From Glaciecola sp. UBA983 (lineage in GTDB: Bacteria > Pseudomonadota > Gammaproteobacteria > Enterobacterales > Alteromonadaceae): a stretch of DNA of 39,279 nt. Positions 3,686-10,596 of the stretch are shown in pieces. The notes beneath the pieces are model-generated. The model worked only from the letters and a program-made list of their open reading frames with translations. It ran no database searches and was not told the DNA's origin. The stretch covers positions 1 through 39,279 of the forward strand of contig DBBN01000061.1 in the NCBI GenBank assembly GCA_002292215.1. Direction: 5' to 3'. The position numbers and the translations under genes were made by a program. How positions within the stretch are numbered: position 1 is the stretch's first letter; every line of letters begins with the position of its first letter.

Positions 3686-4900
3686 TTAGCCTTTATAACG
3701 CTGCATCACTAAGGTTGCGTTCGTACCACCAAAACCAAAACTGTTAGACATAATGGTATTGATAGTTTGTTCACGTGTTTGTGTCACGATATCCAAACCT
3801 TTCGCCGCGTCATCTAATGTTTCAATGTTAATTGATGGTGCAATAAAATTATTTTCCATCATTAAAATACTAAAGATAGCTTCGTTAACCCCTGCAGCAC
3901 CAAGTGCATGGCCTGTCATGGCTTTAGTTGCACTAATTGCTGGTGATTTTTCACCGAATACTTCTTGGATCGCTTTAAGCTCTTGTACATCACCAACAGG
4001 AGTGGACGTCCCGTGAGTGTTTAAGTAGTCAATCTCGCCTTCTACATTTTGCATCGCCATTTGCATACAACGCACCGCGCCTTCACCTGAAGGAGCAACC
4101 ATGTCATAACCGTCAGAGGTTGCACCGTAACCAACAATTTCAGCATAAATATGCGCACCACGCGCTAACGCATGTTCAAGTTCTTCGACCACGACCATAC
4201 CACCACCACCTGAACTGACAAACCCATCACGGTCTGCATCATAAGTGCGCGAGGCTTTTTCTGGCGTATCGTTATATTCTGAGGACAAGGCACCCATTGC
4301 ATCAAATTGACCAGAAAGCGCCCAATGGAGTTCTTCACCACCACCGGCAAATACCACATCCTGCTTGTTCAATTGGATCATTTCCAAGGCATTACCGATA
4401 CAATGTGCTGATGTGGCACAAGCCGATGAAATCGAGTAATTCACCCCTTTGATTTTAAATGGGGTCGCTAAACAAGCAGAAACCGTGCTACCCATACAGC
4501 GTGTAACCATGTAAGGACCGACACGACGCACGCCTTTGTTACGAATAATATCCGCAGAATCAACTTGATGCTTAGACGATGCCCCACCTGAACCTGCAAT
4601 GATACCGGTACGAATATTAGAAATTTGCTCAGGTGACAAACCGGAATCGTCTACGGCTTGTTGCATGGCAATATACGCATAAGAAGCCGCATCGCCCATA
4701 AAGCGTAATTGTTTACGGTCAATATGTTCACTCAAGTCAAGGTCTACTTTGCCCCAAACTTGGCTACGTAAACCCATTTCCTTAAACTGTTCAGAAAACG
4801 TAATACCTGATTTACCAGCACGTAATGACTCAGTAACTTCTGCTTTGTTATTACCAATACTTGATACGATACCTAATCCAGTGATGACTGCTCTTCTCAT
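3686..4900 (-). CDS. fabB: Beta-ketoacyl-ACP synthase I
   Basis: FabB condenses malonyl-ACP with acyl-ACP and is the synthase needed for unsaturated fatty acid elongation. The 404-residue protein carries the thiolase-fold catalytic triad: Cys161 in [10 protein letters not shown], a histidine in [10 protein letters not shown] and a second histidine in [12 protein letters not shown]. The closing [12 protein letters not shown] is typical. Length matches E. coli FabB (406). The ATG at 4900 is preceded by AAGGAA at good spacing. It is divergent from mnmC, the same neighbour as in E. coli, and its upstream region holds FadR-like and FabR-like sites described separately, so activation by FadR and repression by FabR are likely. 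Confidence 0.97.
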
Positions 4901-5027: not shown

Positions 5028-7049
5028 GTGAAGCTTAGCCATGCACAAATCAGCTTTAAATCATCCGGCACGCCAGTTGCTGATGATTTTTCCGATGTTT
5101 ATTTCTTAGACGCTCACGGCTGCGCAGAAACTGACTACGTATTTATCGAACAAAATGATTTGCTCAACAGGTGGTTACAATTCGAACTATCTGACTCTAT
5201 TTCTGCCAATGTATTTGTGATTGCTGAAACCGGTTTTGGCTCGGGTTTAAACTTTTTTCAAACATTGCACCATTATTCGCAGCTACTTGAACAAGGTCAC
5301 ACACTGCCAAGGTTATATTTTTTATCAACTGAAAAGTTTCCAATGACCATGGCCGATTTACAACAATCGATTGCCGTGTACCCACATTTATCTAAATGGG
5401 TTGACGAACTACTGCCACAATATCCTATGGCTTTAACAGGCTGTCATCGAATGCATTTATGCAATGGACTGGTAACATTGGATCTATGGCTTGGAGATAT
5501 TCATGACACCCTGCCCCAATGGCTAAATGAGCATGATGGTCTAGTGGATGCCTGGTTCTTAGATGGGTTTGCGCCAAGCCGTAACCCGGATATGTGGAAT
5601 GAGGCCTTATTTACGCAACTTGCTCGTTTATCCAAACCCAATGGAACACTATCAACCTTTACCGCTGCGAGTATCGTTAAGAGAGGCTTAGTTAAAGCTG
5701 GATATAAATTAACTAAAACCAAAGGCTTTCGCTATAAACGAGAAATGATCCTTGCCACGTTCACAGAATTAGCTATTCGACAACCAACGCAACAACAGCA
5801 CAGCATTCCATATTATGCGCGTCCTGCTCAGCCATTATTACAACATGTGACGATTTTGGGTGGTGGTATCGCCGCAGGGTGTTTAGCCTATTTACTTACT
5901 CAACAAGGCATCGAAGTCTCCGTACACTGCAAAGATGCAGCCTTAGCACAAGGCGCTTCGGGCAATGATTTAGGCGGTTTTTATCCACAACTTAATGCTC
6001 AAGCGAGTATCGCTAGCCAAGTTCATGCAGCTAGTTTTGTGTATGCTCGGCGATTTTATGATGCATTGCTTAGCCAAGGTGCTAAGTTTGGTCATGCTTG
6101 GTGTGGGGTATTACAAGTCGGTTTTAATGACAAAGTTCAACAACGCCAACAAAATTTAATTGATCAACAGGTGTGGCCAGCAGATCTAATCCAAGGTGTT
6201 AGTGCTAGCCAAGCGTCAGAAATTGCACAAGTCGAACTCCCCTATCCGGCGTTATTTATTGAGCAAGGAGGTTGGATCAGCCCACCTCAATTAGTAAAGG
6301 CAATGTTTGCACTCGCACAACAAACCGGTTTATGTCAGATTAACACCCAATCAACATTGAGTACTGATGTCATTACTAATATTACCAGCGATCCTAGTCA
6401 GGCTGTAATATATGCCACGGGTGCAGAATCAGCGCGATTAGCAATCCCGGCGTTACCGTATCGCCTAGTCAGAGGTCAAGTCGAACGAGCCCCTGCCTCC
6501 ACACAAAGCACAAACTTACAAACCGTGTTATGCCACAAAGGTTATTTCACCCCAGCTGTAGATGGAATACATGCATTAGGCTCAACCTATGTGAAAGACG
6601 ATGTTAATTGTGAGTATCGTCCTTCCGAAGCACAACTTAATTTAGCGATGCATCAACAGAGTCTGGTTGAATGTCCATGGATCCAAGCTATGCCATTACC
6701 CACTTCAGGCAGAGCCGCTATTCGCTGCTCAACACCTGACCATTTACCACTCGTCGGCGCTGTGCCCGATGTACAGCAACAATTAATCGACTTTAATCAG
6801 TTGTATCAAGCAAAACCTGCACATACTTACCCTCAAGCGCAAAATGTCAAAGGGCAATATGTGCTAACAGGATTAGGCTCTCGTGGATTAACCACCGCAC
6901 CATTAATGGCACAATTATTAGTATCTCAACTATTAGGGCTGCCTATTCCAGTCACTCAGACCGTCGCAAACGCACTCAATCCAAATCGCTTTTTGATCCG
7001 CGACGGGATCCGTAGATTAAGCTATTTAGACCGATTTACGGCTTCATAA
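5028..7049 (+). CDS. mnmC: Bifunctional tRNA mnm5s2U biosynthesis protein MnmC
   Basis: MnmC completes 5-methylaminomethyl-2-thiouridine at the wobble position of tRNAs for Lys, Glu and Gln. The C-terminal FAD domain removes the carboxymethyl group and the N-terminal domain then methylates the amine. Visible in the 673 residues are the SAM-binding loop ETGFGSGLNF, the DGFAPSRNPDMW motif of the methyltransferase half (about 1-245), and an FAD-binding ILGGGIAAG loop near residue 278 opening the oxidase half. The start is GTG at 5028. The ATG two bases upstream (5026) is followed directly by TGA in its own frame, and the GTG frame matches the family N-terminus (GTPVADDFSDVYF). Divergent from fabB as in E. 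coli. Confidence 0.95.
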   Translation: MKLSHAQISFKSSGTPVADDFSDVYFLDAHGCAETDYVFIEQNDLLNRWLQFELSDSISANVFVIAETGFGSGLNFFQTLHHYSQLLEQGHTLPRLYFLSTEKFPMTMADLQQSIAVYPHLSKWVDELLPQYPMALTGCHRMHLCNGLVTLDLWLGDIHDTLPQWLNEHDGLVDAWFLDGFAPSRNPDMWNEALFTQLARLSKPNGTLSTFTAASIVKRGLVKAGYKLTKTKGFRYKREMILATFTELAIRQPTQQQHSIPYYARPAQPLLQHVTILGGGIAAGCLAYLLTQQGIEVSVHCKDAALAQGASGNDLGGFYPQLNAQASIASQVHAASFVYARRFYDALLSQGAKFGHAWCGVLQVGFNDKVQQRQQNLIDQQVWPADLIQGVSASQASEIAQVELPYPALFIEQGGWISPPQLVKAMFALAQQTGLCQINTQSTLSTDVITNITSDPSQAVIYATGAESARLAIPALPYRLVRGQVERAPASTQSTNLQTVLCHKGYFTPAVDGIHALGSTYVKDDVNCEYRPSEAQLNLAMHQQSLVECPWIQAMPLPTSGRAAIRCSTPDHLPLVGAVPDVQQQLIDFNQLYQAKPAHTYPQAQNVKGQYVLTGLGSRGLTTAPLMAQLLVSQLLGLPIPVTQTVANALNPNRFLIRDGIRRLSYLDRFTAS

Positions 7050-7108: not shown

Positions 7109-7822
7109 TTATTGCTGCGCAGGTAACCCTAATAAATCCAAATGTTCCCCGATCACGTTTTCATAAGACACCATAACCGCATTGGCAATATGCTCTGGGA
7201 TCAATGATTGTGCACTGGCTACAATATGTTTAGTACTCACGTCGATAATCCGTGCATTGATCAAGACGCCACCATGATGTCGGGCAAATGTTCCCGTCAA
7301 AATATAGTCCATCGGTACGTCAATATTCAGATCTTCATGATCACGTGACAAATAAAAATCACCTTGCGACGTCACCCTAATAAAGCCCGTTGATTTAAAA
7401 TCCACCACGGGTATACGGTATTGATGCAATTCGTGTTTAAAGCTTTCTGCCATTTGTAATGCCATGATATTGGAATGATTAAGATCGCTATCAAGCCAAG
7501 CAAAATGTGTCACACCCATTGGGGTTTGTGGCGTCATATTTTCCATATTAGCGACTAAATCTTGTGTTAGATTGCGCACATAATCATTGATGGTATATAA
7601 CAATCGCTCGGGAGTGGCATCCACGGCAATGGGTGAATCTTTATCTGAAAGCTCATCAAGAGAGAGCTCAGATGAAAGCCGAGCCTGTGGCGACGAGATG
7701 GGTATATCATCCGCATAGCGGGCAATAGGTATTGTTGTCTCTGGCAGCAACATGCACCCAGAAAGGCTAGCCACACTAATTGCAACAAGGCTATGTTTGA
7801 GTGTGTGTGATTTTTTAGGCAT
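7109..7822 (-). CDS. FlgO-domain outer-membrane lipoprotein
   Basis: A 237-residue lipoprotein with a FlgO-type domain. I chose ATG at 7822 because GAGG precedes it by five bases and the protein then begins with a lipoprotein signal: a charged n-region, a hydrophobic stretch, and the lipobox LSGC with Cys23. The frame extends 14 codons upstream without a better start. The body (residues about 75-230: LVANMENMTP, VTHFAWLDSDLNHSN, LQMAESFKHEL, DYILTGTF) follows the FlgO fold known from Vibrio, where FlgO is an outer-membrane factor for flagellar function. No flagellar gene is nearby, so a role in motility is not supported by context. It converges on mnmC with no convincing terminator between them. 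Confidence 0.72.
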   Translation of the reverse strand: MPKKSHTLKHSLVAISVASLSGCMLLPETTIPIARYADDIPISSPQARLSSELSLDELSDKDSPIAVDATPERLLYTINDYVRNLTQDLVANMENMTPQTPMGVTHFAWLDSDLNHSNIMALQMAESFKHELHQYRIPVVDFKSTGFIRVTSQGDFYLSRDHEDLNIDVPMDYILTGTFARHHGGVLINARIIDVSTKHIVASAQSLIPEHIANAVMVSYENVIGEHLDLLGLPAQQ

Positions 7823-8037
7823 AACGTCCTCGTCTACACATCGTTTCATCATGTCCAAACACAAGGCAAAGTGTTGCCGTGTAGACCGCAGTTAAAGGCA
7901 ATGTACGGCGACATATATCCGATTTGTAGCGAAATATGGCGTAGTTACCTGTTTAACCTAAGACAAAATACGATGTTGTGGTTATTTCATTGGTATCCAT
8001 GATTAATGAATAGCAATTGTCATACCAAGAATGTTAT

Positions 8038-9954
8038 CTAGTACGTTTGACGCAGGCGCTGCCATAGCGTCCAGATTTTTTTCTGATCCGGCTTGTCCAA
8101 TTCTTGATTGGCAAACGCATCAGTCAAATTTTGGGTGAGGATGTCATCGAGGTTGTTTACTGAGTTTTCACTCGCATCAGGTACCATGCTGACAGCTAAT
8201 GAAAAATGACCATGAAAATAACTACTAATAAACAATTCATCATCAGTGCCATTAACAACAATGTTATCTAAATCTTGTTCAACACCCTCAATAAACTCTG
8301 CAAAGGTTGATGCTTTGTTACTCGCATCAGAATAACTCACTCCGACAGGATATAATACTTTGTCATTGTAGCCGGTGATCACCTCAATCAAACCATCTAA
8401 ACTCGCATCTAACTTTGCATCACCCGTGTCACAAATAAGTGGCTGCCCTTGTAACTGTTGTAATTTAGTTTTAGTTGCCACGATAATAATGTTGTCTTTA
8501 CCTATGGCGCGGATCACGTCTGGCGAAAGTTGCTGGTTGCCTCTACCAAAAATATGCCCTTGCCCACCAATTAATGTAATTAAGAGCTTAGTCGGTGAGT
8601 TTTGTACAATCGGTAATATAGAATCTGCCATCATATCTTGCTCAACACGCTCATTGGCATGGATCACATCTACACCCAGTAATGTATTGGGGTAGCCTAA
8701 TTCTTGCATAATAAAATCAATGGTTGAGCCAGAACCCATAATCCAATTGCAAGGCGCATGTTCATCGCGTAACTCACCGATATAAGCAGCTAAGTCGGCT
8801 AACACCATCTCGTCTGATTCTTTGCCCCCCATCTTGACTGACTGTACATATTGTAATTGCGCGGGGACAGTGAGTTCTCCAAAATGCTTTGCGATGACTT
8901 TACCTTCACGAAATGCTGTCTCATCGATATCGCGTACTTCCGCTTCTTGCACACTGACTAATTTACCTAAAATCATATCAGCAATGACACATCCTGCTGC
9001 GCGAGGCGTAATCGCATAGACACCAGAATGAATTTTACAGCCTGCAGGTATCCCTAAAACCGGAATATGCGTAGGCACAACGTCACAGATATTTCGAGCG
9101 GTGCCATCACCACCAGCAAATAAAATACAATCCACACCTTGAGCAAGGAGCGCTTGGACAGCAGCTTGTGTGTCGCTAGCTTCGGTTTGCGCATGAGGAT
9201 GGGTGTAAACCACTTGTGTCGTAAAACCCAGTGCCACAGCACAATCTTCGCCCATCTGACCTGATGCCGTTTTGATCACTAGTTGTGATTGATGAGCTAC
9301 TAGCTCTTGCAGCGCAGTAGCCGTTTTATAATTAGCTTGTGGAATCGCACCTTTAGCTAAGGCCTGCGCGCGAACATCAGCCCCATCGCTGCCTTTTAAC
9401 GCAACAGCACCACCAATTCCGGCATACGGATTAATCACCAAACCCAGCACAAATTGTCGAGATGTCGGTGAGTGTAATGATTCGGGGTAATATTCTTGTT
9501 TTAACACTTGGATAAATTCTTGTGCTCGTTGTGGGTAACCGTCATTCATCAGTTGCGAAAGTTTATCCGCAACCAGCGACTTAAACGCCAACTCGTCGGT
9601 TTTATTTCCCGTTAAATTATCAGAACTGATGGTAAATTCAAGACCACATGCCAAACAAAAGCCCCATTCAATGGCTTGTGGTAACACTTCGACTCTTTGA
9701 AATTGTCGTTGTTTCTCATCATCCCGACCGTCCGGCGCATACCAATACCCATAATCTGGGAGTAAACGTCGTTCCGAACCAGCAATACACCAATGCGCTA
9801 TTTCATGTAATGCGCTAGAAAAATACCCATGAGCAAACACAACTTGATGATGTTCGACGTGCTCATTAGCAGGTATATAGATAGGCTCGTCTGTGCCCTT
9901 TACTAATCGAGTATTACATCTTTCATAAAAAGTGTGGTCAAATAATTCGATCAA
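8038..9954 (-). CDS. Three-domain fusion: EpmC, ATP-NAD kinase-like, YfcL
   Basis: One uninterrupted 638-codon frame carries three proteins that are separate in E. coli or Shewanella-type genomes. Residues 1 to about 163 match EpmC/YfcM, the hydroxylase acting on the modified lysine of elongation factor P (FAHGYFSSALHEIAHWCIAG, with HExxH at 50-54, and YWYAPDGRD). Residues about 168-540 match the ATP-NAD kinase-like family related to AcoX (INPYAGIGG, GGDGTARNICD at 281, IPAGCKIHSGVY, IGGQGHIFGRGNQ). Residues about 550-638 match YfcL (DDELFISSYFHGHFSLA, and a C-terminal LDKPDQ...W..L). Neither junction (about 9462 and 8322) contains a methionine that could restart translation. The apparent start is TTG at 9954 with a weak ribosome site; the frame is open upstream to a stop at 10033-10035, and EpmC similarity continues a few codons before the TTG, so the true start is unsettled. 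Confidence 0.88.
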   Translation of the reverse strand: MIELFDHTFYERCNTRLVKGTDEPIYIPANEHVEHHQVVFAHGYFSSALHEIAHWCIAGSERRLLPDYGYWYAPDGRDDEKQRQFQRVEVLPQAIEWGFCLACGLEFTISSDNLTGNKTDELAFKSLVADKLSQLMNDGYPQRAQEFIQVLKQEYYPESLHSPTSRQFVLGLVINPYAGIGGAVALKGSDGADVRAQALAKGAIPQANYKTATALQELVAHQSQLVIKTASGQMGEDCAVALGFTTQVVYTHPHAQTEASDTQAAVQALLAQGVDCILFAGGDGTARNICDVVPTHIPVLGIPAGCKIHSGVYAITPRAAGCVIADMILGKLVSVQEAEVRDIDETAFREGKVIAKHFGELTVPAQLQYVQSVKMGGKESDEMVLADLAAYIGELRDEHAPCNWIMGSGSTIDFIMQELGYPNTLLGVDVIHANERVEQDMMADSILPIVQNSPTKLLITLIGGQGHIFGRGNQQLSPDVIRAIGKDNIIIVATKTKLQQLQGQPLICDTGDAKLDASLDGLIEVITGYNDKVLYPVGVSYSDASNKASTFAEFIEGVEQDLDNIVVNGTDDELFISSYFHGHFSLAVSMVPDASENSVNNLDDILTQNLTDAFANQELDKPDQKKIWTLWQRLRQTY

Positions 9955-10140: not shown

Positions 10141-10592
10141 ATGTTCAGTTTACCGCAACCGTTTATCAGCCAATGGGCTATTACCGATTCAGTGATCGAC
10201 CACTATGGTCATGTAAATAACGTTGCATATGTCAAACAGATTGAAACAACCGCATGGCTTCACTCTAATGCACTAGGGTTAAGCATAGAACAATACCAAG
10301 CGATTGATCGCGGCATGGCAATCCGCTCGCATGTGTTGCAATATCATCAACCGTTACATTTAAGCGAGCAAGTTCATTGCGCCACTTGGATTACCCAGTG
10401 TGATGGTAAAGCCACGTTAACGCGTCAATTTGAAATGTACAGTGAACAAAAATCTACCATCGTGTTTAGCGCCACCACAGAGTTTGTATGTATTGCTTTG
10501 TCTTCGGGGAAAATACGGCGCATGCCCGAATTGTTTCGTGATGCTTACCTGCCGGCAGTGCTTGCTCCTGGACAACCAAGCGTGGCGGTAAA

Positions 10593-10596
<4 letters not shown>
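10141..10596 (+). CDS. Hotdog-fold acyl-CoA thioesterase, 4HBT family
   Basis: A 151-residue hotdog protein. The DHYGHVNNVAY segment near residue 20 carries the aspartate and asparagine pattern of the 4-hydroxybenzoyl-CoA thioesterase family, and the rest (TRQFEMYS, VFSATTEFVCIAL) fits the central beta sheet. Such enzymes hydrolyse acyl-CoA or acyl-ACP thioesters; chain preference cannot be read from the sequence. ATG at 10141 is preceded by AAGG. The stop overlaps the start of the retropepsin-like gene by four bases (ATGA), so the two are probably translationally coupled. Divergent from the EpmC fusion across 186 bases. Confidence 0.85.

Follow-up and report, generated by a model that had tools for sequence, protein, structure and literature searches.

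The three protein families EpmC, an ATP-NAD-kinase-like family and YfcL are encoded by a single reading frame in Glaciecola sp. UBA983. The frame lies on the reverse strand of contig DBBN01000061.1 (assembly GCA_002292215.1), of which the whole analysed stretch of 39,279 nucleotides (nt) is called the window here. It is open for 638 codons without an internal stop. The three-gene fusion is real, rare and limited to one clade, and it derives from a widely conserved operon. The 638-residue chain described in the initial annotation is borne out by the Pfam matches, all of which exceed their cut-offs within the one frame: EpmC at residues 4–161 (231 bits, cut-off 23.8), NAD_kinase at residues 207–328 (66 bits, cut-off 25.5), NAD_kinase_C at residues 418–535 (51 bits, cut-off 23.7) and YfcL at residues 553–636 (74 bits, cut-off 25).

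A genus sample of ten genomes, the window's own included, holds the fusion in three (G000, G001 and G003) and three separate genes in seven. The G001 fusion is 86% identical to that of the window and the G003 fusion 98%, the G003 frame being cut by a contig end. Two database clusters also contain the three domains in one frame: P0001, with 140 sequences on 82 contigs (97% identical), and P0002, with 16 sequences (86% identical). Thus, the fusion is not an assembly error. According to the initial annotation, the fusion should be rejected if no related genome had it; G001, G003 and both clusters carry it. Between the window and G001 there is no indel over the 638 codons at a synonymous divergence (dS) of about 1.25, and the ratio of nonsynonymous to synonymous divergence (dN/dS) is 0.067 overall, with 0.089 for EpmC, 0.044 for the kinase and 0.085 for YfcL. 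This indicates that the fused frame is maintained by selection. Against G003 the ratio is 0.066 overall, 0.054 for EpmC and 0.033 for the kinase, and the value of 0.74 for YfcL comes from very few changes (dS 0.03). At the end of the G003 fusion (locus L033), the residues after LWQRLRQT differ from those of the window and number about 11 more, and the stop is shifted.

As the initial annotation had stated, neither junction of the window frame holds a stop or an ATG. In-frame GTG and TTG codons are present there, but none has a Shine-Dalgarno-like match of at least 4 bases at 3–13 nt. In the unfused relative G008, the epmC stop is followed at once by the kinase ATG in the same frame, whereas the fused junction 1 has neither. 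Six of the seven unfused genus members have the yfcL ATG overlapping the end of the kinase gene; in G006 it comes 9 nt after the stop. The motif GGAG is found in the last kinase codons ahead of the yfcL ATG in five of these seven, not in G008 and G006 (the closest). Among the fused copies, GGAG is present at junction 2 of the window and G001 and absent in G003, and none has an in-frame ATG there. The start of the fusion gene is a weak TTG. Since the frame runs 26 codons further upstream without ATG, GTG or TTG, and since the TTG aligns with residue 10 of E. coli EpmC, so that the E. coli protein is nine residues longer, the true N-terminus of the fusion is uncertain.

Judged by sequence, the domains are shown to keep the residues of their free-standing relatives, namely the iron site of EpmC and the GGDGT motif of the kinase. 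The EpmC part matches the EpmC/YfcM domain (PF04315; PDB 3wtr and 4pdn) over nearly its full length. In the alignment to 3wtr, H50, H54 and E89 correspond to the 2-His-1-carboxylate iron ligands and E96 to the supporting acid, which are common to both proteins. In E. coli EpmC the ligands are H59, H63 and E98, with the acid at position 105 (PMC4231759). Unlike EpmC/YfcM, the window domain is joined directly to the kinase-like domain, and the junction stands in place of the C-terminal tail found downstream of the YY/YF motif in most unfused members of the genus. Elongation factor P (EF-P) with K34, EpmA and EpmB are all present in the window genome.

By its NAD_kinase and NAD_kinase_C matches, the kinase-like part belongs to the NAD kinase/diacylglycerol kinase superfamily. 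Its N-terminal half has the superfamily fold, with the yeast NADH kinase 3afo among the fold matches; the kinase profile gave no match below E 0.1 among PDB chains. GGDGT is invariant in 22 of 22 aligned kinase rows. The free-standing "ATP-NAD kinase family protein" has the same two domains and the same invariant residues, GGDGT included, and is 57–77% identical among the matches listed. The window kinase differs from these relatives in being embedded between EpmC and YfcL. From the canonical NAD kinase it is clearly distinct, scoring 12–13 bits against the NCBIfam NadK equivalogs with cut-offs of 299–326. It is not the only NAD kinase of its genome: a canonical NadK is present, split over two contig ends.

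The YfcL part matches profile positions 2–83 of the 83 of PF08891 and keeps the DDELF...Y..GH region. It differs from YfcL elsewhere in having no ATG of its own, being read through from the kinase. The predicted structure has four helices with a predicted local distance difference test score (pLDDT) of 95, so that the domain is predicted to keep its four-helix bundle. Foldseek and VIA-align returned no convincing PDB match for this model, and the YfcL profile matched no PDB chain. In the literature, yfcL appears among the mutants of a curli screen (PMC5745457) and is listed alongside epmC, yfcA and mepA (PMC11356199). Literature searches, made partly through incomplete listings, found no paper on an EpmC–kinase–YfcL fusion, no function for the kinase-like subfamily and none for YfcL.

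A single origin of the fusion is probable, in Glaciecola-like bacteria and through the collapse of an epmC–kinase–yfcL operon. Within a sample of relatives, 33 genomes bear EpmC; in 30 of them, the three fusions included, the kinase gene is a co-directional neighbour of epmC, and 25 of these 30 have a yfcL match next in line. The fused species group together in the kinase tree (support 83/61), with the kinase–YfcL protein P0003 as their sister (98/95). This position suggests that kinase and YfcL were joined first, provided that the start of P0003, a putative separate one on a short contig (2194 bases), is right. The same grouping of the window with G001 is seen in the EpmC tree (94/96) and the YfcL tree (80/90); G003, with its truncated frame, was omitted from these two. 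As the window and G001 stand together in all three domain trees, there is no support for a recent transfer of one part. Precomputed Pfam assignments for the best 120 of the 7722, 7779 and 1362 matches in three protein searches revealed five clusters with more than one of the families: P0001 and P0002 with all three, P0003 and P0016 (Pseudoalteromonas denitrificans) with kinase–YfcL, and P0008 with EpmC–kinase. P0008 and P0016 stand elsewhere in the kinase tree and represent separate joins; the families are linked in the same way and order as in the window fusion, but they hold two domains only. A long EpmC frame in G218 appears, on inspection by eye, to be a chance upstream extension. The window protein resembles Rosetta-stone fusions of operon neighbours in that the domain order follows the gene order and the junctions arose by loss of stop and start. 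It differs from them in joining three families at once and in a distribution that speaks against a common reaction.

This distribution was surveyed in 197 genomes of the order, after removal of eight fragment rows below 50 bits; the YfcL matches of G459 and G031 were kept although they score under the Pfam cut-off. EpmC is found in 132 genomes, the kinase in 99 and YfcL in 98. All three occur in 44 genomes, EpmC with the kinase in 29, EpmC with YfcL in 29, the kinase with YfcL in 24, EpmC alone in 30, the kinase alone in 2, YfcL alone in 1 and none in 38. The kinase is thus absent from 59 of the 132 EpmC genomes. The odds ratios for joint presence, uncorrected for kinship, are 5.0 for kinase and YfcL, 1.9 for EpmC and kinase and 2.0 for EpmC and YfcL. 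Where both genes of a pair are present, epmC and the kinase gene lie next to each other in 72 of 73 genomes, as do the kinase gene and yfcL in 66 of 68. epmC and yfcL lie within 300 nt in 23 of 73, which fits the earlier statement that they are neighbours in E. coli.

EpmC acts after EpmA, and EpmA is present in all 132 EpmC genomes (absence, read by hand as a best E-value above 1e-80, applies to 42 genomes and agrees with the 155 of 197 over the cut-off). EarP is the enzyme of EF-P arginine rhamnosylation. In lineages whose EF-P is modified by EarP, no use for EpmC is expected; Shewanella oneidensis MR-1 is of this EarP type (PMC6544042). Twenty-five genomes from five families have EarP over the cut-off; EpmC is missing from every one of them, the kinase and YfcL each occur in 24, and the two occur together in 23. 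Twelve genomes under the EarP cut-off were dropped; all belong to f3, a family of 13 genomes that all lack EpmC, the kinase and YfcL. Of the 26 genomes with the kinase and without EpmC, 24 have EarP, and in 24 of the 26 YfcL adjoins; in all 24 kinase and YfcL genomes without EpmC the two genes are 15–137 nt apart. The EarP genomes are related, and they probably represent a handful of independent EpmC losses and not 25. The retention of kinase and YfcL in these genomes implies a role independent of EF-P hydroxylation.

The surroundings of the EpmC-free kinase–yfcL pairs vary. A major facilitator superfamily gene is accompanied by a small methyltransferase gene at L042 and by an FKBP gene at L044, an AMP-binding enzyme is encoded at L043, and chorismate synthase lies two genes away at L047. 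G391 has a second, distant kinase (L051, 6633-7805; 36% identical to that of the window in alignment A3) on a contig other than that of epmC and yfcL. At C1:3861709-3863794, G400 has what seems to be a decaying operon copy: a second epmC, then a kinase frame interrupted by stops, then yfcL. The gap between epmC and yfcL is 2.86–3.17 kb in family f176 (G340, G427, G439, G462 and G483), as if by an insertion between them. In a wider sample of 276 genomes of the class, 19 have EpmC over the cut-off and 3 give a strong match (above 500 bits) to the kinase subfamily. One of these three, G159, has no EpmC, and no yfcL was found beside its kinase.

The sequence shows that a tightly packed, co-directional epmC > kinase > yfcL cluster has lost both internal stop/start signals in one Glaciecola-like clade, with its products now read as one chain. 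The EpmC part may hydroxylate the beta-lysylated K34 of EF-P. The kinase-like part would be a non-canonical member of the superfamily beside the canonical NadK of the genome, phosphorylating a hydroxyl group on NAD(H) or some other small molecule, and YfcL may be its small helical partner. The kinase and YfcL would thus form a functional pair with which EpmC shares expression and not a reaction. The covalent link would fix the stoichiometry and may be tolerated or mildly useful. We consider it likely that the fusion is such a clade-limited collapsed-operon protein of three separately folding domains.

The chain might instead work as separate parts, freed by internal initiation or by proteolysis at the junctions. 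These are short and variable (dN/dS against G001 of 0.69 over the 12 codons of junction 1 and 0.65 over the 16 of junction 2) and fall in stretches of the predicted full-length model with pLDDT below 50 (residues 151–164 and 541–548), although the whole EpmC part of this model is poor. In G001 (L053), an in-frame TTG lies 10 nt past GGGAG at junction 2 and could start a free YfcL in that species. On the other hand, the window and G003 junctions have no in-frame ATG, GTG or TTG with a Shine-Dalgarno-like match of at least 5 bases, and GGAG is lost in G003; we give this explanation a small chance. The model, built from alignment A3, has block pLDDT values of 41–72 in the EpmC part and a predicted template modelling score of 0.57, and its domain packing is not reliable. 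The poor EpmC part results from the misplacement of free-standing EpmC and YfcL rows by MAFFT, which in the discarded alignment A2 placed them on kinase columns. A merger of three genes by assembly or sequencing error has practically no probability left: the window's draft assembly does consist of 129 contigs, but the other copies of the fusion and the indel-free alignment with G001 refute it.

The initial annotation had suggested one process for all three families, in which the two uncharacterised ones may assist EF-P hydroxylation. What stands of this is that the fusion is real and recurrent and that the genes are neighbours in many families. Made specific, the idea turns the fusion into a dedicated hydroxylation machine: the kinase-like domain would provide or keep NADP(H) for the EpmC iron site, with YfcL as adaptor. 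If the kinase used NADH in place of NAD, it would give NADPH directly, and the yeast NADH kinase 3afo is one of the fold matches; the conserved epmC–kinase adjacency and the EpmC–kinase fusion P0008 in another lineage also speak for it. In vitro, EpmC hydroxylation drops about 2-fold without NADPH, no NADPH binding by EpmC itself was seen and further components are suspected (PMC4231759). However, kinase and YfcL in EpmC-free lineages cannot serve EF-P hydroxylation, so that a dedicated role is unlikely. The EpmC genomes without the kinase and the canonical NadK of the window genome weigh on the same side, as does a source that calls hydroxylation negligible for EF-P function (PMC6544042). The machine is an improbable explanation. 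Still less probable is a direct action of the kinase-like domain in the EpmC reaction, by binding or making NADP(H) as the component missing in vitro or by phosphorylating the EF-P hydroxyl added by EpmC, with YfcL as adaptor and with another substrate for the pair in EarP lineages. In EpmC-bearing lineages a role of kinase and YfcL with EF-P hydroxylation is possible, as is a direct link to EpmC given the NADPH-stimulated assay (PMC4231759); a shared pathway for all three parts is possible but not favoured.

The features of the window are listed in Table 1. A FlgO-domain gene (7109..7864, reverse strand) lies between mnmC and the fusion. It is absent in G003 (L033), where about 12 nt, counting the stop codons, separate the ends of the mnmC and fusion frames.

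Table 1. The fusion gene, its parts and its neighbours in the window.
Feature	Coordinates	Strand	Remarks
epmC–kinase–yfcL triple fusion gene	8038..9954	-	638 amino acids; TTG start, start uncertain
EpmC domain, residues 1-160	9475..9954	-	iron ligands H50, H54, E89 and supporting acid E96 intact
Junction 1, residues 156-167 (12 codons)	9454..9489	-	18 nt less than in unfused G008, which has stop+ATG here
ATP-NAD-kinase-like domain, residues 168-540	8335..9453	-	GGDGT motif intact
Junction 2, residues 541-556 (16 codons)	8287..8334	-	holds GGAG, no in-frame ATG
YfcL domain, residues 553-636	8047..8298	-	predicted four-helix bundle
beta-ketoacyl synthase gene (fabB-like)	3686..4900	-	flank common to several relatives
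mnmC-like gene	5028..7049	+	flank common to several relatives
thioesterase-like gene	10141..10596	+	divergent neighbour upstream of the fusion

The fusion does not show that all three parts do the same job, since kinase and YfcL stay together in bacteria without EpmC. It is an example of a fusion that, read alone, could point to the wrong pathway. What emerges is a conserved kinase–YfcL pair that is kept in both worlds of EF-P modification, that of EpmABC and that of EarP. The two proteins are a testable partner pair, and the fusion is a natural single-chain version of it with fixed stoichiometry, which could be purified, assayed or crystallised.
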